Below are positions 7,037-18,837 of a stretch of DNA of 21,303 nt, piece by piece (positions within the stretch are counted from its first letter, which is position 1; every line of letters begins with the position of its first letter). Origin of the DNA: a virus; IMG/VR virus record IMGVR_UViG_3300030102_001489, positions 774-22,076 of that record; one strand, written 5' to 3'. Below the pieces are notes generated by a model that was not told the DNA's origin, ran no database searches, and worked only from the letters and a program-made list of their open reading frames with translations. A program made the translations under genes and the position numbers.

Positions 7037-7243
7037 ATGATTAAAAGAACAGAAATAAATCAACAGAAAACACCTACAGCATTAAATAATAAAAACAGCT
7101 ATAGCAATAAAGGTAACGTATCTTTAAAAACTGACGCTGGTACGTTTGATGCTAATACCACACCTAAACCAGGAATGGGAAAAGGTAAAGCTAGAGGTAT
7201 GGGTGCTGCTGAGTTTGGTGGCAAGTTCTCTGGCATTTATTAA
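7037..7243 (+). CDS. Small conserved phage protein, 68 aa, Gly-rich C-terminus
   Basis: The ATG follows a 39-nt gap without a clear ribosome binding site. The N-terminal 35 residues are Asn/Lys-rich and probably disordered. The C-terminus reads GKARGMGAAEFGGKFSGIY; this RGMGAA-xx-GG-x-F type of ending is familiar from small proteins of uncultured marine phages that sit near the portal gene. The last base of its stop codon is the first base of the next ATG. Its position between portal and scaffold points to head assembly, but function is unknown. Confidence 0.8.
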   Translation: MIKRTEINQQKTPTALNNKNSYSNKGNVSLKTDAGTFDANTTPKPGMGKGKARGMGAAEFGGKFSGIY

Positions 7244-7449
7244 TGGATTCAGTTTGGCTTGCGAACAAGTTTTTAAAAGAACTTGAAGCCAGAAGAGAAG
7301 ACACGAAAGATGCTATGTTAGCAGGTTGCAAAGACTTCTCTCAGTATGAATATCTGCGTGGGCGGTACAGTTCTCTCGCCGACACAGAAAATATATTTAG
7401 AGAACTGCTAGGAAAACTACAACAAGATGACACAGATACAAGTACCTGA
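7243..7449 (+). CDS. Small helical phage protein, 68 aa
   Basis: A short acidic, helical protein starting on a TAATG overlap. The middle, KDFSQYEYLRGRYSSLADTENIFRELL in outline (Tyr-Glu-Tyr-Leu-Arg-Gly then a Leu/Glu helix), resembles small phage proteins found near portal genes in T7-like and marine podovirus genomes; these are uncharacterised. The last 23 nt overlap the following GroES-like gene in a different frame, so the two are likely translationally coupled. A role in the head or neck module is suggested only by location. Confidence 0.8.
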   Translation: MDSVWLANKFLKELEARREDTKDAMLAGCKDFSQYEYLRGRYSSLADTENIFRELLGKLQQDDTDTST

Positions 7450-7939
7450 TCATGTTGCAAAGTCTATCGAGGCAGAGCAAAAACTACAAAACAAAAATGC
7501 AGTAGAAACACCAACAGAGGATGGTGGTGCTACTAAAAAAGAAAACCCAGCATATGTCAAAGAATCAGCTAGGGTTTTAGATCCAACTCTTTTAGAAAAA
7601 TCAGTATTAGAGCGTATGCCACAACCAACAGGCTGGCGGATGCTTATCCTACCTTATGCGGGTAAGGGTGTTACTGATGGTGGTATTCACTTAGTACAAC
7701 AAACTGTAGATAGAGAATCTTTAGCTACTGTTGTTGGGTATGTGGTAAAGATGGGGCCAGATTGTTACAAAGACACATCAAAATTTGATAAAGCCTGGTG
7801 CCAAGAAAAACAATGGGTATTGATAGGAAGATATGCTGGTGCAAGATTCAAACTCGGCGATGAATCTGAATGTAGAATCATTAATGATGATGAAGTAATT
7901 GCAACAATACTAGATCCTAATGATATTCTTGCAGTATAA
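7427..7939 (+). CDS. GroES-like co-chaperonin
   Basis: Residues 68-170 match the Cpn10/GroES fold: GWRMLILPYA aligns with the first strand, GVTDGGIHL (81-89) with the GroEL-binding mobile loop and its Gly-Gly-Ile core, ATVVGYVVKMG (100-110) with the GxVxxVG strand, WVLIGRYAGARFKL with the VGDxVxFxxYxGxxxK strand, and IINDDEVIATILDPNDILAV with the C-terminal DEEVLIMxESDILA-type end. In the cell GroES caps the GroEL folding chamber; phage versions such as T4 gp31 adapt host GroEL to fold the major capsid protein. There is an extra N-terminal region of about 67 residues, polar and probably disordered, not present in GroES. No GroEL gene is in the window, so it would work with host GroEL. It lies just before scaffold and capsid genes, fitting a capsid-folding role. 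The start overlaps the preceding gene; AGGA lies about 15 nt upstream. Confidence 0.85.
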   Translation: MTQIQVPDHVAKSIEAEQKLQNKNAVETPTEDGGATKKENPAYVKESARVLDPTLLEKSVLERMPQPTGWRMLILPYAGKGVTDGGIHLVQQTVDRESLATVVGYVVKMGPDCYKDTSKFDKAWCQEKQWVLIGRYAGARFKLGDESECRIINDDEVIATILDPNDILAV

Positions 7940-9988: not shown

Positions 9989-10891
9989 ATGGCAATAAAT
10001 AGAGCGCAATTAGCGAAAGAATTAGAGCCAGGTCTAAATGCTTTGTTCGGTATGGAATATGCCCGATACGAAGCTCAACATTTAGAAATTTTTGATACAG
10101 AAACTTCTGATAGAGCGTTTGAAGAAGAAACTCTTATCGTAGGATTCGGTAATGCAGAGGTAAAATCAGAAGGTAGTGGTGTCAGATTTGATACAGCTAA
10201 CGAAGGTTATACATCACGTTACACCCACGAGACAGTAGCTTTAGCTTTCGCACTAACTGAAGAAGCAGTTGAAGATAATCTATATGATAGACTCGGAGCA
10301 AGATATACCAAAGCACTAGCTAGATCTATGGCTAACACAAAGCAAATCAAAGCTGCAGCTGTATTGAACAATGCGTTCTCTACAGTAGGTGGAGATGGCA
10401 AAGTGTTGATCGCTACAGATCATCCACTAGGCGGAGGCGGTTCACTAGCAAACAGGGCTACCACTATGGCGGACTTGAATGAAACTTCACTTGAAGATGC
10501 TTTAATTAGTATCTCTACATTTACTGATGATAGAGGTCTAAATATAGCGTTGAAAGGTATGAAACTCATCGTTCCACCACAATTAGTGTTTGTCGCTGAC
10601 AGATTACTGCAAACTCCAGGTAGAGTTGCTACATCTGATAACGACATCAACGCTATCAACAATACTGGTATGATTCCTGATGGTTATGTTGTAAACAACT
10701 ATCTAACAGACACAGATGCTTTCTTCTTGAAAACAGACTGTCCTGATGGATTTAAGTATTTTGAAAGATCTCCAATGACAACATCATTGGAAGGTGACTT
10801 CGATACAGGCAACATGAGATATAAGGCTAGAGAGCGTTATAGCTTCGGATATTCAAACTTTAGAGCCGTTTTCGGTTCTCAAGGAGCTTAA
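9989..10891 (+). CDS. Major capsid protein (HK97 fold, Mu gpT-like)
   Basis: The protein that forms the icosahedral shell. Residues 140-155 (LIATDHPLGGGGSLAN) followed by DLNETSLEDALISISTF (162-178) and GLNIALKGMKLIVPPQLV (183-200) match the Mu-like major head protein family with the HK97 fold. The C-terminal part (MRYKARERYSFGYSNFRAVFGS) is the usual P-domain end. At 300 aa it needs no long N-terminal delta domain, consistent with the separate scaffold gene. The site AGGAG at 9976-9980 lies 8 nt before the ATG. A strong terminator follows 43 nt after the stop, so this gene ends a transcription unit with much read-through control. Confidence 0.93.
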   Translation: MAINRAQLAKELEPGLNALFGMEYARYEAQHLEIFDTETSDRAFEEETLIVGFGNAEVKSEGSGVRFDTANEGYTSRYTHETVALAFALTEEAVEDNLYDRLGARYTKALARSMANTKQIKAAAVLNNAFSTVGGDGKVLIATDHPLGGGGSLANRATTMADLNETSLEDALISISTFTDDRGLNIALKGMKLIVPPQLVFVADRLLQTPGRVATSDNDINAINNTGMIPDGYVVNNYLTDTDAFFLKTDCPDGFKYFERSPMTTSLEGDFDTGNMRYKARERYSFGYSNFRAVFGSQGA

Positions 10892-11789: not shown

Positions 11790-12194
11790 ATGGCTGATAC
11801 AGTAACTTCGCAAACTATTCAGGATACTGATAGAGTTGCAATATTAAAGTTTACTAATGAATCTGATGGCACAGGAGAATCTTCTGTAAAAAAAGTAGAT
11901 GTTTCAGCATTACAACCTAATGATTTAGGTGTTTCTTGCACTAGCGTTTCTATAGCACGTATTTATTGGGCTACTAGAGGCATGGGTGTAGACATTGAAT
12001 TTGACGCATCAACTAATGTTTTAGCTATTCCATTACCAGCAGATAGCACAGGTGATGAATACTATGATGATAGATTTAGTGGTATACCTAATAACGCGGG
12101 TTCTGGAGTGACGGGAGATATTGACTTTACGACTGTAGGCCACTCAAGTGGTGATGCTTATTCTATTATTTTGGTATTGAATAAGAACTATTAA
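11790..12194 (+). CDS. Conserved phage virion protein, 134 aa
   Basis: Beta-rich protein with AGGAG 6 nt before its ATG. The opening MADTVTSQTIQDTDRVAILK, the block FTNESDGTGESSVKKVDVSA and the end GDIDFTTVGHSSGDAYSII are the signature of a small family I recall from many marine phage contigs, usually placed after the capsid gene. No function is established. Position and lack of enzyme motifs make a structural part of the head or neck most likely. Confidence 0.85.
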   Translation: MADTVTSQTIQDTDRVAILKFTNESDGTGESSVKKVDVSALQPNDLGVSCTSVSIARIYWATRGMGVDIEFDASTNVLAIPLPADSTGDEYYDDRFSGIPNNAGSGVTGDIDFTTVGHSSGDAYSIILVLNKNY

Positions 12195-12198
12195 ATGA

Positions 12199-12498
12199 AT
12201 GGCTACCAGAAAACCAGCTAAACAGATCCGTAGAACAACTGGAAAAGGTGGTAATTACCGCCCCACTAAAAAAGGGGCGGGAATGACCCGTAAGGGCATA
12301 AAAGCATATCGTAAAGCCAATCCAGGCTCAAAATTAAAAGGTGCCGTTACTGGCAAAGTTAAAAAAGGTAGTAAAGCGGCAAAAAGGAGAAAGTCTTTTT
12401 GTGCAAGATCACTTGGTCAGTTAAAGAAAAGTTCTGCAAAAACAAGAAATAATCCTAATTCAAGAATAAGGCAAGCTAGAAGAAGATGGAAGTGTTAA
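12199..12498 (+). CDS. Highly basic small protein, 99 aa, no acidic residues
   Basis: By direct count 35 of 99 residues are Lys or Arg and none is Asp or Glu. The blocks KKGAGMTRKGIKAYRKANPG, KGSKAAKRRKSFCARSLGQ and the end RIRQARRRWKC are conserved in a family of small basic proteins that I recall from cyanophages, other marine phages and some giant algal viruses, with no known function. Two Cys (68, 99) could pair or bind metal. Such charge implies DNA or RNA binding. It is the first of six basic-protein genes; the next ATG follows its stop directly. A competing ATG at 12195 gives only an eight-codon peptide. Confidence 0.87.
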   Translation: MATRKPAKQIRRTTGKGGNYRPTKKGAGMTRKGIKAYRKANPGSKLKGAVTGKVKKGSKAAKRRKSFCARSLGQLKKSSAKTRNNPNSRIRQARRRWKC

Positions 12499-12789
12499 AT
12501 GGCTAAATCAGATCCAAAAGTAGGCACAGGTAAAAAACCAAAAGGGTCAGGTCGAAGGTTGTATACCGATGAAAATCCAAAAGATACAGTTTCAATCAAA
12601 TATGCAACAGTGCAAGATGCTAGAGATACTGTTGCAAAAGTAAAAAAAACAAAAAAACCATTTGCTAGATTAATTCAAATACTGACAGTTGGCGAACAAA
12701 GATCTAAGTATGGAGGCAAGCCTAGGCAAGCAGAAATATTTAGAAGAGGCAAAGATGCGATAAGAAGAAAACATGGTAGAATAAAATAA
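12499..12789 (+). CDS. Basic conserved phage/algal-virus protein, 96 aa
   Basis: The N-terminal block VGTGKKPKGSGRRLYTDENP (8-27) followed by KDTVSIKYAT and a helical part (DARDTVAKVKKTKKPFARLI, ILTVGEQRSKYGG) is a recognisable small family shared by T4-like cyanophages, uncultured marine phages and, as I recall, some nucleocytoplasmic large DNA viruses. A Pfam DUF exists for it, I think DUF5872, but I am not certain of the number. Basic overall, no catalytic motif. Its stop overlaps the next start by one base, so it is part of a tight translational chain. Function unknown; nucleic-acid binding is inferred from charge. Confidence 0.85.
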   Translation: MAKSDPKVGTGKKPKGSGRRLYTDENPKDTVSIKYATVQDARDTVAKVKKTKKPFARLIQILTVGEQRSKYGGKPRQAEIFRRGKDAIRRKHGRIK

Positions 12790-13112
12790 TGGCAAAAAAG
12801 AAATTAAATAAAGTTATCAAAGGCTTGCAAAAAGCAAGTAAAACGCATGCTGCACAAGCAAAAACTCTAAAGTCTATAAAAATGAAAAAAGGCGGTAAGG
12901 TAAAAAGCGGTGGCAAAATTTGTCCAGAAGGCAAAGCATGGGCAAAGCGTACTTTTGATACATATCCTTCAGCATATGCAAATATGGCTGCATCAAAATA
13001 TTGTAAAGACCCAAACTACGCTAAAGGAAGTAAGAAAAGAAAGAAAAAAGCCACAGGTGGTTTTGTTTCTATAAGAGGTCAAGGTATAGTTATGAAAGAA
13101 AGATTAAGATAA
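12789..13112 (+). CDS. Basic protein with YPSAYAN motif and C-terminal GG tag, 107 aa
   Basis: Three parts can be seen. Residues 5-33 are a basic helix (VIKGLQKASKTHAAQAKTLK) related to the separate 41-aa protein at 14799. Residues 42-79 hold a small conserved domain with CPEGKAWAKRTFDTYPSAYA and a second Cys in ASKYCKDPNYAK; the YPSAYAN motif is known from small phage and algal-virus proteins of unknown function. Residues 90-107 form a C-terminal tag, GGFVSIRGQGIVMKERLR, that resembles the tag on the next protein. KKGGKV and KSGGKI add two more Gly-Gly motifs. It joins both neighbours by 1-nt overlaps. Function unknown. Confidence 0.86.
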   Translation: MAKKKLNKVIKGLQKASKTHAAQAKTLKSIKMKKGGKVKSGGKICPEGKAWAKRTFDTYPSAYANMAASKYCKDPNYAKGSKKRKKKATGGFVSIRGQGIVMKERLR

Positions 13113-13555
13113 TGGGTCAGTTAGCAGAGTGGAGAAAACAAAACTGGGTGCGTATTGGTACCGATGGATCCATAAAAGGACCATGTGGTACAAGTAAAGA
13201 TAAAAAAAATCCAGATCGTTGTTTACCAAAAGCAAAAGCACAAAGTTTAAGTAAAGCAGAACGAGCAAAAACAGCTAGAAAAAAGAAAGCTGCTGGTAGA
13301 AAAGGTAAAACAGTTGTAGCAAATACAAAAAAAGCTAGAGTGTCAATGAAAACAGGAGGAACTATGTTAAAAAATAAACAAAAAGCAGATTTAAATAAAG
13401 ATGGTAAAATATCTTCATATGAGATGAAAAGAGGCATGGCGATAGAAAAAGCCATGAAAAAACAAAACCGTGCTAAAATGAAAGACGGTGGTTTTATAGC
13501 TAAAGGTTGTGGAGCTGTAATGAATAACCGTAGAAAAGTTACAACCATTAGTTAG
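13112..13555 (+). CDS. Basic protein with EF-hand loop and GG tag, 147 aa
   Basis: Residues 5-65 (AEWRKQNWVRIGTDG, then GPCGTSKDKKNPDRCLPKAK and SKAERAKTARKKKAAGRKGK) are a conserved basic domain seen in many phages, with two Cys that might bind metal. Residues 93-104 are a canonical EF-hand calcium loop: DLNKDGKISSYE has Asp1, Asn3, Asp5, Gly6, Ile8, Ser9 and Glu12 in place. Residues 126-147 (GGFIAKGCGAVMNNRRKVT) are a tag similar to the end of the previous protein. A strong internal ribosome site and ATG at 13364 could also give a 63-aa product holding only the EF-hand and tag. The function is not known; the calcium loop is seen, its use is inferred. Confidence 0.87.
   Translation: MGQLAEWRKQNWVRIGTDGSIKGPCGTSKDKKNPDRCLPKAKAQSLSKAERAKTARKKKAAGRKGKTVVANTKKARVSMKTGGTMLKNKQKADLNKDGKISSYEMKRGMAIEKAMKKQNRAKMKDGGFIAKGCGAVMNNRRKVTTIS
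13354..13359 (+). promoter_or_regulatory. Internal Shine-Dalgarno AGGAGG
   Basis: A perfect AGGAGG lies inside the 13112 gene, 4 nt before an in-frame ATG at 13364 (residue 85). It is also the coding sequence for Gly-Gly of a TGGT motif, so it may simply reflect the protein. Confidence 0.5.
13364..13555 (+). other. Possible nested gene product, 63 aa EF-hand protein
   Basis: Starting at the internal ATG would give MLKNKQKADLNKDGKISSYE and the C-terminal tag without the N-terminal basic domain. The perfect upstream AGGAGG supports it. The full-length reading frame is equally intact, so this is an alternative product, not a replacement. Confidence 0.35.
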
Positions 13556-13563
13556 GAGATAAA

Positions 13564-13731
13564 ATGCCAAAGAAAAAATCAGAAGATCCAAAACTACAAG
13601 CTAGATTAAACGCAAAAGTTCGACCAGACGAGCAAGTATCTAATGAGCGTGTTTATTATAATATGCCAAAGAAAAAAGCTCCTGCAAAAAAAAACACTGC
13701 TAAAAAAGGCAGACCAAAGAAAAAGGATTAA
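13564..13731 (+). CDS. Small basic AT-hook-like protein, 55 aa
   Basis: This frame is short but has a good site AGGAG at 13554-13558, 5 nt before ATG, and fits exactly between its neighbours. The product is very basic. The C-terminus KKGRPKKKD (47-55) contains the GRP core of an AT-hook, a motif that binds the minor groove of AT-rich DNA. MPKKK occurs twice, at residues 1-5 and 34-38, and the underlying 15-nt sequence is identical (13564-13578 and 13663-13677). This suggests internal duplication or fusion of two tiny genes. Binding to the phage's own AT-rich DNA is plausible but inferred. Confidence 0.8.
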   Translation: MPKKKSEDPKLQARLNAKVRPDEQVSNERVYYNMPKKKAPAKKNTAKKGRPKKKD

Positions 13732-13733
13732 TT

Positions 13734-14081
13734 ATGTTTAAAAGGACTAAATATTATGCAAGTGGCGGTCGTTCTAAAGGCAGTAAATACATGTCTAAAG
13801 GCGGTAAAGCTACAAAATATATGGCAAAAGGTGGTAAAGCTACTAAATACATGGCGAAAGGCGGAAAGGCTTCTAAGTATATGGCTAAAGGAGGTAAGGC
13901 CTCTAAATATATGGCAAAGGGAGGCAAGGCTTCAAAATACATGGCTAAAGGTGGTAAAGCGTCTAAATATATGGCTATGGGGGGAAAAGCCTCAAAATAT
14001 ATGGCTAAAGGTGGCAAAGCTTCAAAGTACATGGCAAAAGGGGGCAAAGCTTCCAAATATATGTCTAAAGGCGGTGCTTAA
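13734..14081 (+). CDS. Tandem KYMAKGGKAS repeat protein, 115 aa
   Basis: After a 17-residue start that itself looks like a degenerate unit (KYYASGGRSKGS), the protein consists of nine complete ten-residue units of consensus KYMAKGGKAS and a final eight-residue unit ending SKGGA. It has no Asp or Glu and about 33 Lys or Arg. It begins 2 nt after the previous stop, with AAAGGATTAATT before the ATG. The pattern Lys-Tyr-Met-Ala-Lys-Gly-Gly suggests an extended or helical basic polymer able to coat DNA or RNA, or a scaffold of many identical binding sites. Function is unknown. Both other frames through the repeat happen to be open, which is a by-product of the periodicity. Confidence 0.85.
   Translation: MFKRTKYYASGGRSKGSKYMSKGGKATKYMAKGGKATKYMAKGGKASKYMAKGGKASKYMAKGGKASKYMAKGGKASKYMAMGGKASKYMAKGGKASKYMAKGGKASKYMSKGGA
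13785..14078 (+). repeat. 30-bp coding tandem repeat, ten units
   Basis: Ten in-frame units (nine of 30 bp, the last 24 bp) encode KYMAKGGKAS with minor change. Reading each unit out, no two are identical in DNA: Gly codons vary among GGT, GGC, GGA and GGG, Ala among GCT, GCA, GCG and GCC, Lys between AAA and AAG. The only protein changes are S/A in position 4, T/S in position 10 and one K-to-M. Confidence 0.95.
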
Positions 14082-14109: not shown

Positions 14110-14799
14110 TTGTCTTATTTAATATCAAACATACCACAGTTTAAATGCTGGGTAAGAAAAGAATTTACAGCTAATCATCAAAAGTATCATGGTGAATACT
14201 TACATGCGTTAGCTTTTGCCGTGAATACAATTCCAGACAGATCGCTGTCTTTTCAGGTTGTTTTTACAGGCTGTGAAACAGATCTTGAAGATAACACGGA
14301 TGAAAATATACATGGTGGTGCTATGTGGGCACGTATGCCTATACAGGCATTGATAGCGGATGTGCCATTAGAAGAATGGCCTGAGCCTATGGAGGATCAC
14401 TTAGCACAACCCTGGGACTGTTTATCACATCATCATTCAGTGGTTGTTTTAGACCGTGTTAGTTCCTCACCCTGGATATGTAAAATTGACGGAGAGTTTC
14501 ATACGGGTACTTATATGTTTACCGTAGATTACACAGAACATAGTATTGCTGATGATTCTGCACAACATAAACAAAGTCATGTGCTATACTTAACTGACGC
14601 GGGTGAATACACTGGTAATTTTATAGCTTTACCTAACAATAGAGTTAGAGCTACAAATCCAGCTTTATGGCGTGTTGGTGAAGGTCCACCAGACTTTTCT
14701 CCAAGTCAATGGATTCATTCAGCAGAAAAACATGATAGTTATATGGATTCAAATATAACGTTTGACAATCTATATAACCAAGATGATAGGTATAAATAA
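14110..14799 (+). CDS. Conserved phage protein, 229 aa, TTG start
   Basis: The frame opens with TTG, preceded by AAAGGGGG. Family resemblance supports it: the beginning SNIPQFKCWVRKEF followed by a YHGEYLHALAFAV-type segment, a middle with WICKIDGEFHTGTYMFTVDY and an end with FIALPNNRVRATNPALW and PPDFSPSQW are a set of blocks that I recall from uncharacterised proteins of T4-like cyanophages and other marine phages. The composition is soluble and mixed alpha/beta with many Trp and His. No catalytic motif I can defend. It follows the repeat gene by 28 nt and its last base is the first base of the next gene's ATG. Function unknown; it stands between basic proteins and connector genes. Confidence 0.87.
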   Translation: MSYLISNIPQFKCWVRKEFTANHQKYHGEYLHALAFAVNTIPDRSLSFQVVFTGCETDLEDNTDENIHGGAMWARMPIQALIADVPLEEWPEPMEDHLAQPWDCLSHHHSVVVLDRVSSSPWICKIDGEFHTGTYMFTVDYTEHSIADDSAQHKQSHVLYLTDAGEYTGNFIALPNNRVRATNPALWRVGEGPPDFSPSQWIHSAEKHDSYMDSNITFDNLYNQDDRYK

Positions 14800-14924
14800 T
14801 GGCAGAATTAAGCGTAACAGCAAAAAGAAAACTTATTAAAGAGCTGAAAGGTGCTTCAAAGTTACACGCAAAACAAGCTAGACAGATAGAAAGATCTCTT
14901 AAAAAAACTAAGAAGAAAAAATAA
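14799..14924 (+). CDS. Tiny basic protein, 41 aa
   Basis: It is short but framed by 1-nt overlaps with both neighbours (TAATG on each side), which strongly supports that it is translated. The sequence contains LIKELKGASKLHAKQARQIE, then a run of Lys. It is related to residues 5-33 of the protein at 12789 (VIKGLQKASKTHAAQAKTLK): both share ASK-x-HA-x-QA. It probably forms one basic amphipathic helix. Function unknown. Confidence 0.75.
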   Translation: MAELSVTAKRKLIKELKGASKLHAKQARQIERSLKKTKKKK

Positions 14925-15595
14925 TGTCTCTCTCTGGTAGTACAAACTTTGAACCAAATGTTACAGAGTTCATAGAAGAAGCGTATGAACGTTGTGGTGC
15001 AGAATTAAGAACAGGATATGATCTTAAAACAGCCATAAGAAGTGTTAATCTAATGTTAGCTGAATGGGCTAATAGGGGATTAAATCAGTGGACAATTGAA
15101 GAAGCCACACAAACTGTGACTGAAGGCACTACAAGTTATTCACTTAATCCCAATGTTATTGATGTATTAGATGTTGTTCTACGTAGAACAATTAATCAAA
15201 CTCAAACAGATATTAGTATTAACAGAATCAGTAGATCAGAATATCTAAACATACCTAACAAAACCACAAAAGCTAGACCATCACAATTTTTCTTTGATAA
15301 ATTAACAACTCCAGCATTAAAAATATGGCCTGCACCAGAAAATAGTACAGATATATTAGTATTTAATAAACTTGTCAGAATGGATGATGCAGACAAAGGC
15401 ACTAATACCATGGATATGCCATTCAGGTTTTATCCTTGTTTTGTTGCAGGTTTAGCCTATTACTTATCACAAAAAAAGAATCCACAACTTACTCCACAGC
15501 TCAAAGCTCTGTATGAAGAAGAATTTAGACGAGCAGCCGATCAAGATGAAGACAGAGCATCATTTAGAGTAAGACCTGATATAAGGATGAATTGA
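14924..15595 (+). CDS. Head-tail connector/adaptor protein, 223 aa
   Basis: Conserved blocks: helix FIEEAYERCGAE (16-27), RSVNLMLAEWANRGLNQWTI with the M-L-A-E-W segment seen in P22 gp4-like adaptors, a beta-rich middle with ALKIWPAPE, and a C-terminal helix FRFYPCFVAGLAYYLSQK ending in FRVRPDIRMN. Proteins of this pattern sit after the capsid in podovirus-like genomes and are thought to form the ring under the portal (gp4 or tail-tubular-A type). The length fits. Its stop TGA overlaps the ATG of the next gene. I am confident of a neck role, less of which exact ring. Confidence 0.75.
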   Translation: MSLSGSTNFEPNVTEFIEEAYERCGAELRTGYDLKTAIRSVNLMLAEWANRGLNQWTIEEATQTVTEGTTSYSLNPNVIDVLDVVLRRTINQTQTDISINRISRSEYLNIPNKTTKARPSQFFFDKLTTPALKIWPAPENSTDILVFNKLVRMDDADKGTNTMDMPFRFYPCFVAGLAYYLSQKKNPQLTPQLKALYEEEFRRAADQDEDRASFRVRPDIRMN

Positions 15596-15933
15596 TGGCG
15601 TACGCACTTGGCAAGTTTGCAAAAGGTTTATGTGATCGCTGTTCTTTTGAATATAAATTGAGCGAACTTAAAGAAGAGTGGAATGGTGCAAAGGTTTGTC
15701 CTGATTGTTATGAACCAAAACATCCACAGCTTGAACCATTAACTGCAACTGCAGATCCAGAAGCATTATATAGACCAAGACCAAACAATGATCAAGAAGA
15801 GGGAGAAGGCTTTGTTGTTGTGGTGCAGTCTAATATTTTAATACCAGATTATTTAAATCCATCTACTTTACCTACTAACTTTACAATGACTAAGATGACA
15901 GGTAATGTTGGCGAGGTTACAATAGTTACATGA
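15595..15933 (+). CDS. Zinc-ribbon phage structural-module protein, 112 aa
   Basis: I choose the ATG at 15595 over an in-frame TTG three bases upstream because AAGGA at 15583-15587 is spaced 7 nt from it and it overlaps the previous stop as TGATG. Cys13-x2-Cys16 and Cys35-x2-Cys38 form a zinc-ribbon pattern around KLSELKEEWNGAKV, followed by EPKHPQLEP, a block I recall from a small family encoded between adaptor genes in marine phages. The second half is Pro/Glu-rich then beta-like (FVVVVQSNILIPDYL). Zinc binding is seen as a motif only. It may be a minor neck or tail part. It overlaps the next gene by 4 nt. Confidence 0.82.
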   Translation: MAYALGKFAKGLCDRCSFEYKLSELKEEWNGAKVCPDCYEPKHPQLEPLTATADPEALYRPRPNNDQEEGEGFVVVVQSNILIPDYLNPSTLPTNFTMTKMTGNVGEVTIVT

Positions 15934-16604
15934 CCTTATCTGAACTTAAAACACTTATTCAAAACTATGTTGAAAATAGTGAAACTACATTTGTTAATAC
16001 ACTAGATGATTTTATAAAAAATGCAGAAGAAAGAATATTTGAACTAATACAGTTTGATTTTTTTCGCAAAAATGTTACGGGTAATCTTACAACTGGCAAT
16101 ACATACCTTACGGCTCCGACAGATTTTCAAATGAGTTTTTCACTTGCCGTCATTGATGGTAATGGTGACTATAAATATTTAGATAAAAAACATCCGACAT
16201 TCATGCGTGAGTTTAGTGTTGATCCGACAGATACTAGTGCAAGAGGACAACCTTTATACTACGCAGATTTTGATAAAGAGTTATCAACAGCTAGTGATAA
16301 TGGTTCTACTTTAATTGTAAGCCCTGTACCAGATGCAGATTATAATGTTGAACTGCATTATTTATTTAAACCTAATTCTTTAGTCACTGATACCACAGGC
16401 ACATGGATTTCTAATAATGCTAGAAATGCTTTATTGTATGGATCTTTAGTAGAAGCAAACATATTTTTAAAAGGTGAAAGCGATATGCAACAGCAGTACG
16501 AGCAACGCTTTTTACTAGAAATAACAAGGCTTAAAAACCTTGCTGAAGCTCGCGGAAGGAGAGATGAATATCGATATGACTCTTTGAGGACTACGGTATC
16601 TTAA
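15930..16604 (+). CDS. Second adaptor (tail tubular A/gp4-like) protein, 224 aa
   Basis: Starts in an ATGA overlap. It begins with a helical bundle (LKTLIQNYVENSETTF, DDFIKNAEERIFELIQFDFF), then a beta-domain (NLTTGNTYLTAPTDF, STLIVSPVPDADYNVELHY) and ends in helices with ARNALLYGSLVEANIFLKGE and LAEARGRRDEYRYDSLRT. This alpha-beta-alpha plan and the ending are familiar from phage adaptor proteins of the tail-tubular-A type, which join portal and tail. It shares overall plan, not close identity, with the 14924 product, so the window may encode two stacked rings. Confidence 0.75.
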   Translation: MTLSELKTLIQNYVENSETTFVNTLDDFIKNAEERIFELIQFDFFRKNVTGNLTTGNTYLTAPTDFQMSFSLAVIDGNGDYKYLDKKHPTFMREFSVDPTDTSARGQPLYYADFDKELSTASDNGSTLIVSPVPDADYNVELHYLFKPNSLVTDTTGTWISNNARNALLYGSLVEANIFLKGESDMQQQYEQRFLLEITRLKNLAEARGRRDEYRYDSLRTTVS

Positions 16605-18075: not shown

Positions 18076-18837
18076 ATGGCTAATATAACTGGTTGGGGTC
18101 GAGGCACCTGGGGTGAAGGTGCTTGGGGCGAACCCGTACCAGTTACTCTTACAGGTTTAGCAGCTACAAGTGCATTAGGCACTGTTTCTATTGTAGCTAA
18201 AGCTAACGTAACTCCATCATCACAAGTTGGCACTTCAGCGGTAGGTACACTTACTTTCGATTGTGAGTCTAATGTTAGTCCAAGTGGAGTATCTGCTACT
18301 TCAGCTCTTGGAACTCTCACAGTAGTAGCAAAAGCTAATGTCACACCATCTTCACAAGTAGGCACAAGTGCCGTAGGATCTCTTACAATTGTTGCTAAAG
18401 CAAATGTAACACCCAGTTCACAAGTAGGTACAACCGCAGTTGGTGGGGTTGGCGTAAACGGTGATGCAGTTGCAAACGCTCCTAGTGCTGTGGCCACACT
18501 TGGTAGTGTAAGCGTAGATGTTGATGGAGAAGCAAATGTAGTGATTTCAGGCCTTTCGGCAACATCCTCCGTTGGATCTGTAACCGTACATCACAACGCT
18601 AAATTTAATATTGATGGTAATTCTGCATCTGGAAATGTTGGATCTATAACAACAATATCCAAAGCCACTGTTACTTTAACAGGTGTGTCTTGTGCTGGTG
18701 AAGTTGGTGGGGTATTAGTTTGGTCGCTAATAGATGATACACAAACAAAAAATTATGCTAATATAAATACTGACCAAAGTTCATCCTTTGCTGAAATTAA
18801 TGAAACACAAACTCCAAATTGGGAAGAGGTAGCATAA
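18076..18837 (+). CDS. Fibre-like protein of 22-aa beta repeats, 253 aa
   Basis: The N-terminus GWGRGTWGEGAWGEPVPV is Trp/Gly-rich, a start I recall from marine phage fibre proteins. Residues 21-217 are about nine imperfect units of roughly 22 aa with consensus ANVTPSSQVGTSAVGTLTIV, giving a regular beta structure. The C-terminus holds three eleven-residue units (DDTQTKNYANI, NTDQSSSFAEI, NETQTPNWEEV) that end the protein. This architecture fits a fibrous virion protein; adhesion to the host surface is inferred. No strong ribosome site; the gene begins 11 nt after the previous stop. Confidence 0.82.
   Translation: MANITGWGRGTWGEGAWGEPVPVTLTGLAATSALGTVSIVAKANVTPSSQVGTSAVGTLTFDCESNVSPSGVSATSALGTLTVVAKANVTPSSQVGTSAVGSLTIVAKANVTPSSQVGTTAVGGVGVNGDAVANAPSAVATLGSVSVDVDGEANVVISGLSATSSVGSVTVHHNAKFNIDGNSASGNVGSITTISKATVTLTGVSCAGEVGGVLVWSLIDDTQTKNYANINTDQSSSFAEINETQTPNWEEVA
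18136..18726 (+). repeat. 66-bp coding repeat, about nine units
   Basis: The 22-aa repeat region of the fibre-like gene. Three central units (residues 43-60, 87-104 and 109-126) encode almost the same peptide NVTPSSQVGTSAVG but use different codons throughout. Confidence 0.85.

Follow-up and report, generated by a model that had tools for sequence, protein, structure and literature searches.

Organization of the basic gene block

Six consecutive small genes in the late region of a viral fragment encode proteins rich in lysine and arginine, and the locus raises the question of whether these proteins form a set that is packed into the phage head with the DNA. We analyzed a window of 21,303 nucleotides, comprising most of the 22-kb IMG/VR fragment. 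Its late region has a podovirus-like order: terminase, portal, GroES-like, scaffold-like and capsid protein genes are followed by the basic cluster and then by genes for the neck, for an SU10-type adaptor and for a tail protein bearing an S74 chaperone domain. The relevant features, in window coordinates, are as follows.

7037-7243, + strand: extra basic gene next to the portal gene, 68 aa, net charge +7, pI 10.1, C-terminal tag RGMGAAEFGGKFSGIY
7427-7939: GroES-like co-chaperonin of the phage type, between the portal and scaffold-like genes
9989-10891: capsid protein gene, upstream of the basic block
12199-12498, + strand: g1, 99 aa, DUF6321 protein ending in RRWKC
12499-12789, + strand: g2, 96 aa, basic arm and predicted three-helix bundle, LYTDENP motif
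12789-13112, + strand: g3, 107 aa, N-terminal helix, AKRTFDTYPSAYAN module and C-terminal tag RGQGIVMKERLR
13112-13555, + strand: g4, 147 aa, WVRIGTDGSIKGPCGTSKDKKNPDRCLP module, EF-hand-like loop and C-terminal tag KGCGAVMNNRRKVTTIS
13564-13731, + strand: g5, 55 aa, basic, ending in KGRPKKKD
13734-14081, + strand: g6, 115 aa, KYMAKGGKAS decapeptide repeat
14799-14924, + strand: extra basic gene, 41 aa, net charge +12, resembling the N-terminal helix of g3
14924-16604: neck/adaptor genes, downstream of the basic block

The six ORFs were found at 12199-14081, where the initial annotation had described them, and its account of their tight spacing (gaps of 0, -1, -1, +8 and +2 nt from g1 to g6) and of their position between the head and neck genes is borne out by the coordinates. 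The counts of K+R against D+E from g1 to g6 are 35/0, 28/9, 31/4, 41/10, 19/6 and 33/0, with net charges of +13 to +35 and pI values of 10.4-12.0. The remaining window proteins are almost all acidic, only two of 24 being clearly basic (14799-14924 and 7037-7243), and a run of at least six among 8 basic genes of 30 arises in 0.1% of permutations, with the charge classes set post hoc. These two extra genes may be further members of the basic set; the profile of the 41-aa gene also matches g3-type proteins, and the 68-aa gene belongs to a tag-bearing family present in 59 relatives. Among same-length relatives, 61-74% of the differences in g1-g4 fall at codon position 3 (such relatives number one for g5 and zero for g6), which shows that g1-g4 are under selection as proteins. 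Elsewhere in the window, a late gene with a TTG start (14110-14799) matches a PHROG labelled ferredoxin, a label that is doubtful because Pfam finds no match, and a protein made of repeats resembling TSAVGTLTIVAKANVTPSSQVG (18076-18837) is probably structural.

Families, folds and motifs of the individual proteins

The composition reported for g1, 35 basic and zero acidic residues, was reproduced. The protein is a full member of DUF6321 (PF19846), scoring 45.5 bits against a Pfam cut-off of 28.5. DUF6321 occurs as one copy per genome in 18/18 phage genomes or contigs of 31-229 kb, a figure that describes copy number and not prevalence, since several of the genomes were chosen through DUF6321 matches. 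The structural model of g1 is poor (pLDDT 67), and its fold matches in BFVD are essentially only DUF6321 phage proteins. For g2, neither Pfam nor PHROG gave a significant match; its AlphaFold2 model (pLDDT 80) shows three helices in a bundle and a basic arm that is disordered, and a fold search of the PDB with this model returned no match. Sequence searches of the PDB with g1-g4 gave nothing significant, and a single radical-SAM match for g2 was at chance level and was rejected. Both g3 and g4 match PHROG families of unknown function, phrog_27331 (E=1.5e-25) and phrog_23735 (E=5e-22), respectively. A cysteine pair is kept in about 90% of dereplicated relatives in the g1 module and likewise in that of g4; the pair in g3 is less conserved.

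Regarding the motifs proposed earlier, the EF-hand loop of g4 has the canonical form DLNKDGKISSYE and is conserved in relatives, but the Pfam EF-hand score of 19.9 bits lies below the cut-off of 25.9. Similarly, the AT-hook-like GRPKKK of g5 is present near the C-terminal end, but Pfam gives no AT-hook match up to E=1. No Pfam or PHROG family matches g5, whose relatives occupy the same position in 59 loci. The description of one protein as a pure basic repeat fits g6, in which the decapeptide repeat is accompanied by 33 basic and no acidic residues; KGG-repeat ORFs with varying repeat number stand at its position in relatives. No protamine, HU or H1-like family was matched by the cluster proteins in Pfam, PHROG or NCBIfam, and neither PADLOC nor NCBIfam returned anything for the set. 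The suggested recurrence in large algal viruses was not upheld for the two families searched, as neither g1 nor g2 had a significant match among algal viruses in BFVD fold searches.

Co-occurrence of the modules

The modules of g1-g4 are reordered and sometimes fused across IMG/VR loci, and the block is found at either of two sites, the capsid/neck interval or the portal/GroES interval. Among 32 loci picked by their capsid protein and not by the modules, all extending 4 kb or more downstream, 16 have two or more of g1-g4 (g4 in 16, g1 in 15 and g3 in 14). Phage C75C1 has a different backbone and carries g1-g3-g4, and the cultured pelagiphage HTVC027P also has the modules as separate genes. The genes therefore deserve the name of a set, as had been proposed, in the sense that g1-g4 appear together in phage backbones that are not related to each other and form fusions in cyanophages. 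A point against the head-cargo reading comes from HTVC010P, in which the DUF6321 gene lies near a peptidase and small membrane-like proteins and not near head genes.

Two contigs from Pelagibacteraceae single-cell assemblies (AG-447-N17 and AG-919-D18; our loci L448 and L450) carry g1 relatives with 91% and 78% identity, which is a hint that phages of the window kind infect SAR11. In a further five loci (L080, L180, L181, L191 and L279), long KGG-rich basic proteins end in RGAGIARKGVRPAKM or a related tag, several of them with dockerin-like DLTGDGxVTxAD loops; these proteins may be an alternative basic set in other phages.

A fusion of the four modules in T4-like cyanophages

The recurrence in cyanophages was confirmed, and it takes the form of a fusion. 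In T4-like cyanophages, the T4-GC119 gene, previously a gene cluster of unknown function (PMC3037559), sits between the terminase genes gp16 and gp17. Its representative S-SM2_109 contains g2 (108 bits), g4 (76), g3 (94) and g1 (101) in that order within one chain, and S-SM1_115 and S-SCSM1_29 contain the g4, g3 and g1 modules. The g2 segment is also found in a P-TIM68 protein one gene away from gp23, and in 120 of 122 cyanophage proteins with DUF6321, this domain forms the C-terminal end. The T4-GC119 proteins and the window thus share the g1-g4 modules, but the former are single polypeptides with acidic linkers and protease-like sites, whereas in the window the modules are encoded separately, some with C-terminal tags, and are accompanied by extra basic proteins. 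S-SZBM1_195, an abundant virion protein adjoining T4-GC119, was considered and is not one of the g1-g4 modules. In the open-access literature we found no prior description of a head polyprotein in cyanophages or of basic pelagiphage proteins and no paper naming DUF6321, and on this basis the polyprotein reading and the basic set are provisionally new.

Junction motif and prohead protease

In T4, the prohead protease gp21 cleaves after L/I-X-E, and the internal proteins bear a short capsid-targeting sequence (PMC9026906). We examined the module junctions specifically because whole-protein enrichment of [LI]xE is weak, other ORFs also exceeding shuffling. In the cyanophage module proteins, the 8 residues preceding a module contain [LIVM]xE, a motif wider than the T4 rule in allowing V or M at P3, at 65 of 82 distinct junctions; shuffling yields 23.5 of 82, and control 8-mers taken further upstream 6 of 243. 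The predicted sites in S-CREM2 ORF160 read LSE/ARDGK, LEE/KKNCW and ISE/GKKDACY. Neither [LI]xD nor the reversed motif is enriched at these junctions. The same motif enrichment is seen in gp21 and gp22 of S-SM1, the expected substrates of the prohead protease, and cyanophage gp23 retains a T4-like site. The pattern suggests that the cyanophage polyprotein is cleaved at its junctions.

The distribution of the protease follows the two gene formats. Peptidase_S77 is present in 6/6 cyanophages checked and in 0/12 phages with separate modules; in the latter 12 related phages neither Peptidase_S77 nor S78, the two families searched, was found. This contrast agrees with the polyprotein model but, because it follows phage lineage, does not test the model independently.

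Detection in virions

Published proteomes place relatives of the modules in particles. In CsCl-purified virions of S-CREM2, ORF160 was detected with 7 unique peptides and the DUF6321 protein ORF137 with 4 unique peptides at 4.1% coverage (PMC10665884 Table 3). ORF160 contains the g4, CW.GY.KKG and g3 modules; ORF137 is net acidic outside DUF6321, which, like its low coverage, counts against the head-cargo reading. S-SCSM1_29 carries a 'virion protein' label in its record; we counted 48 such labels in that record and 45 proteins were detected by MS (PMC9602691), which makes an MS basis for the label very likely, though not certain. S-SZBM1_192 is absent from the 30 proteins detected in S-SZBM1, which again counts against head cargo. 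In total, association with virions holds for three of the four proteins with clear module matches, and for one of the three it comes from the label. Virion detection alone does not place a protein in the head, and we infer a location in the head rather than the tail; the window's own phage would likewise carry its proteins in the virion. The interpretation given in the initial annotation is partly supported, and its proposal that the set is packaged with DNA gains strong indirect backing: relatives of g1, g3 and g4 occur in purified cyanophage virions, and sites of the T4 prohead-protease type lie between the g1-g4 modules.

Exchangeable C-terminal tags

In phages of the window type, one kind of C-terminal tag recurs on g3, on g4 and on no fewer than three unrelated proteins. 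We counted 401 tagged ORFs, where shuffled ends would lead one to expect 10, and 397 of them lie on the strand along which the loci had been oriented. Since the loci are related to each other, these numbers lack independence. Bodies of the g3 and g4 types exchange tags, an exchange that points to the tag being a separable element. In one case the body bearing the tag is acidic (L187:1088-1351), and a plain basic tail is therefore ruled out as the full account of the tag. Our guess is that KGCGxVMxxRRKxT might steer proteins into the procapsid.

A possible role as head cargo, and the alternatives

Four of the six proteins correspond to pieces of one virion-found, cleavable-looking cyanophage protein, and the set is therefore probably packed into the head with DNA. 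The reading that we favor, and hold to be reasonably likely, is that the window set is basic head cargo resembling the T4 internal proteins, encoded here by an operon and in cyanophages by a single polyprotein gene. Basic proteins would be built into the procapsid and then kept in the head alongside the DNA. T4-like cyanophages string relatives of the g2, g4, g3 and g1 modules in one polypeptide, which the prohead protease would cut at [LIV]xE before each module, leaving basic pieces inside the prohead. In the podovirus-like phage of the window, with no protease of this type found in its relatives, the pieces come from separate, closely spaced or overlapping genes, and some carry the swappable tag KGCGxVMxxRRKxT, perhaps directing them into the procapsid. 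Within the head, the simplest view is that they would bind DNA, neutralize its charge and help to compact it, and they might be ejected with it; condensation of DNA by the set is plausible from its charge. Membership of g5, g6 and the 41-aa gene (14799-14924) would follow by position and charge only. A broader version, in which the modules are a mobile head-cargo kit with two routes (a protease-cut polyprotein in T4-like phages and, in phages without a prohead protease, single-module genes with a portable C-terminal GxG tag of the forms KGCGxVMxxRRKxT, RGQGIVMxxRLR and RGAGIARKGVRPAKM) and the tag is a novel capsid-targeting signal, is tentative.

The proteins could instead be ejected effectors that travel in the head and do their work once injected into the host, where they might, for instance, target host nucleic acid or counter restriction; their charge would then only help packaging. 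T4 IPI acts in this way against restriction (PMC9026906), and the modules are diverse, shuffled and furnished with paired cysteines, as cargo with separate targets might be. However, a bulk charge role better fits g1 and g6, with their extreme charge and lack of any acidic residue, and the low-complexity repeat found in g6, and PADLOC gave no match to a defence or counter-defence family; we regard effectors as rather unlikely. Assembly factors for packaging or head completion (partners of terminase, portal or scaffold that are not stably in virions) might be expected from the cyanophage gene between the small and large terminase genes and from the window block between the capsid and neck genes. 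Relatives are nevertheless found in purified virions, while the terminase subunits of those phages are neither labelled nor listed as virion proteins, which makes this role improbable.

Small Lys/Arg-rich proteins with helical modules are also able to bind RNA, and the genes could encode RNA-binding or ribosome-associated late proteins that are co-transcribed with the head genes and act in the cell. The protease-like junctions, the targeting-like peptides and the relatives detected in virions speak against this, and we consider it very unlikely. Lastly, the AT skew is positive (0.30-0.37 over 12001-14000) and g5 and g6 are little conserved outside close relatives, as would be the case if A-rich, lysine-rich ORFs without a common function had produced the pattern as a composition artefact. 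For g1-g4 this is refuted by the third-codon-position bias of 0.61-0.74; known families, conserved Cys and Trp and cyanophage relatives detected as proteins also oppose it, and for the block as a whole such an artefact is scarcely credible.

Comparison with known systems

The favored head-cargo reading rests on likeness of features to T4 and not on sequence homology. T4 IPI, IPII and IPIII are small net-basic head cargo; the proteins of the set share the small size and the charge and would share the role. The cyanophage carriers have targeting-like peptides: T4 ipII and ipIII start with MKTYQEFIAE/A in the T4 record, the DUF6321 protein S-SZBM1_192 starts with MKTFKQYITE/A, and a targeting-like peptide, KSFQEFQTE/GKK, lies inside the cyanophage polyprotein. 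Examined as T4 internal proteins are, the carriers come with the protease, L/I-X-E-like boundary sites and presence in virions by published data, S-SZBM1_192 being the one not detected. In contrast, none of g1-g6 starts with a targeting sequence of the MKT[YF]xEFxxE type, the phages with separate modules are without the T4-type protease, and the window proteins form a multi-module kit. By membership tests the window proteins are thus not T4 internal proteins, but they probably work like them.

T4 gp22 and gp67 are also head proteins that are cut into several fragments by the prohead protease gp21 (PMC9026906); however, gp67 is strongly acidic whereas the modules are basic, and most T4 core peptides leave the head. 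The histone H1-like protein Hc2 of Chlamydia resembles g6 in its Lys-rich repeats and in a size set by repeat number (PMC2848022), but it is cellular and has another repeat unit, and the likeness is meant as an analogy. DUF6321, a Pfam family without assigned function, is here tied to three partner modules and to virions. It and its partners, found in pelagiphages and many cyanophages, previously had no assigned role; if the reading is true, they would be internal head proteins of these marine phages, and the large gene that separates the two terminase genes of cyanophages, labelled 'hypothetical', would encode a processed polyprotein. One head-cargo set would then exist in two genetic formats, depending on the presence of the prohead protease, and every cut site and module would be a concrete prediction, checkable in existing virion mass-spectrometry data.

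Targeting-like starts in other cyanophage proteins

In 21 of 109 cyanophage loci (L302:4059-4379 and L310:2468-2797 among them), the gene that follows T4-GC119 begins with a targeting sequence like that of T4 (MKSFNQFMTE/SINI...), and it probably encodes a further internal head protein. A nicotinamide mononucleotide adenylyltransferase, an enzyme found repeatedly in cyanophage virions, starts in S-SCSM1 (S-SCSM1_91; L439:38607-39836) with MKSFLQFLKE/A, much like the T4 capsid-targeting sequence, and this resemblance could account for its presence in the particle.
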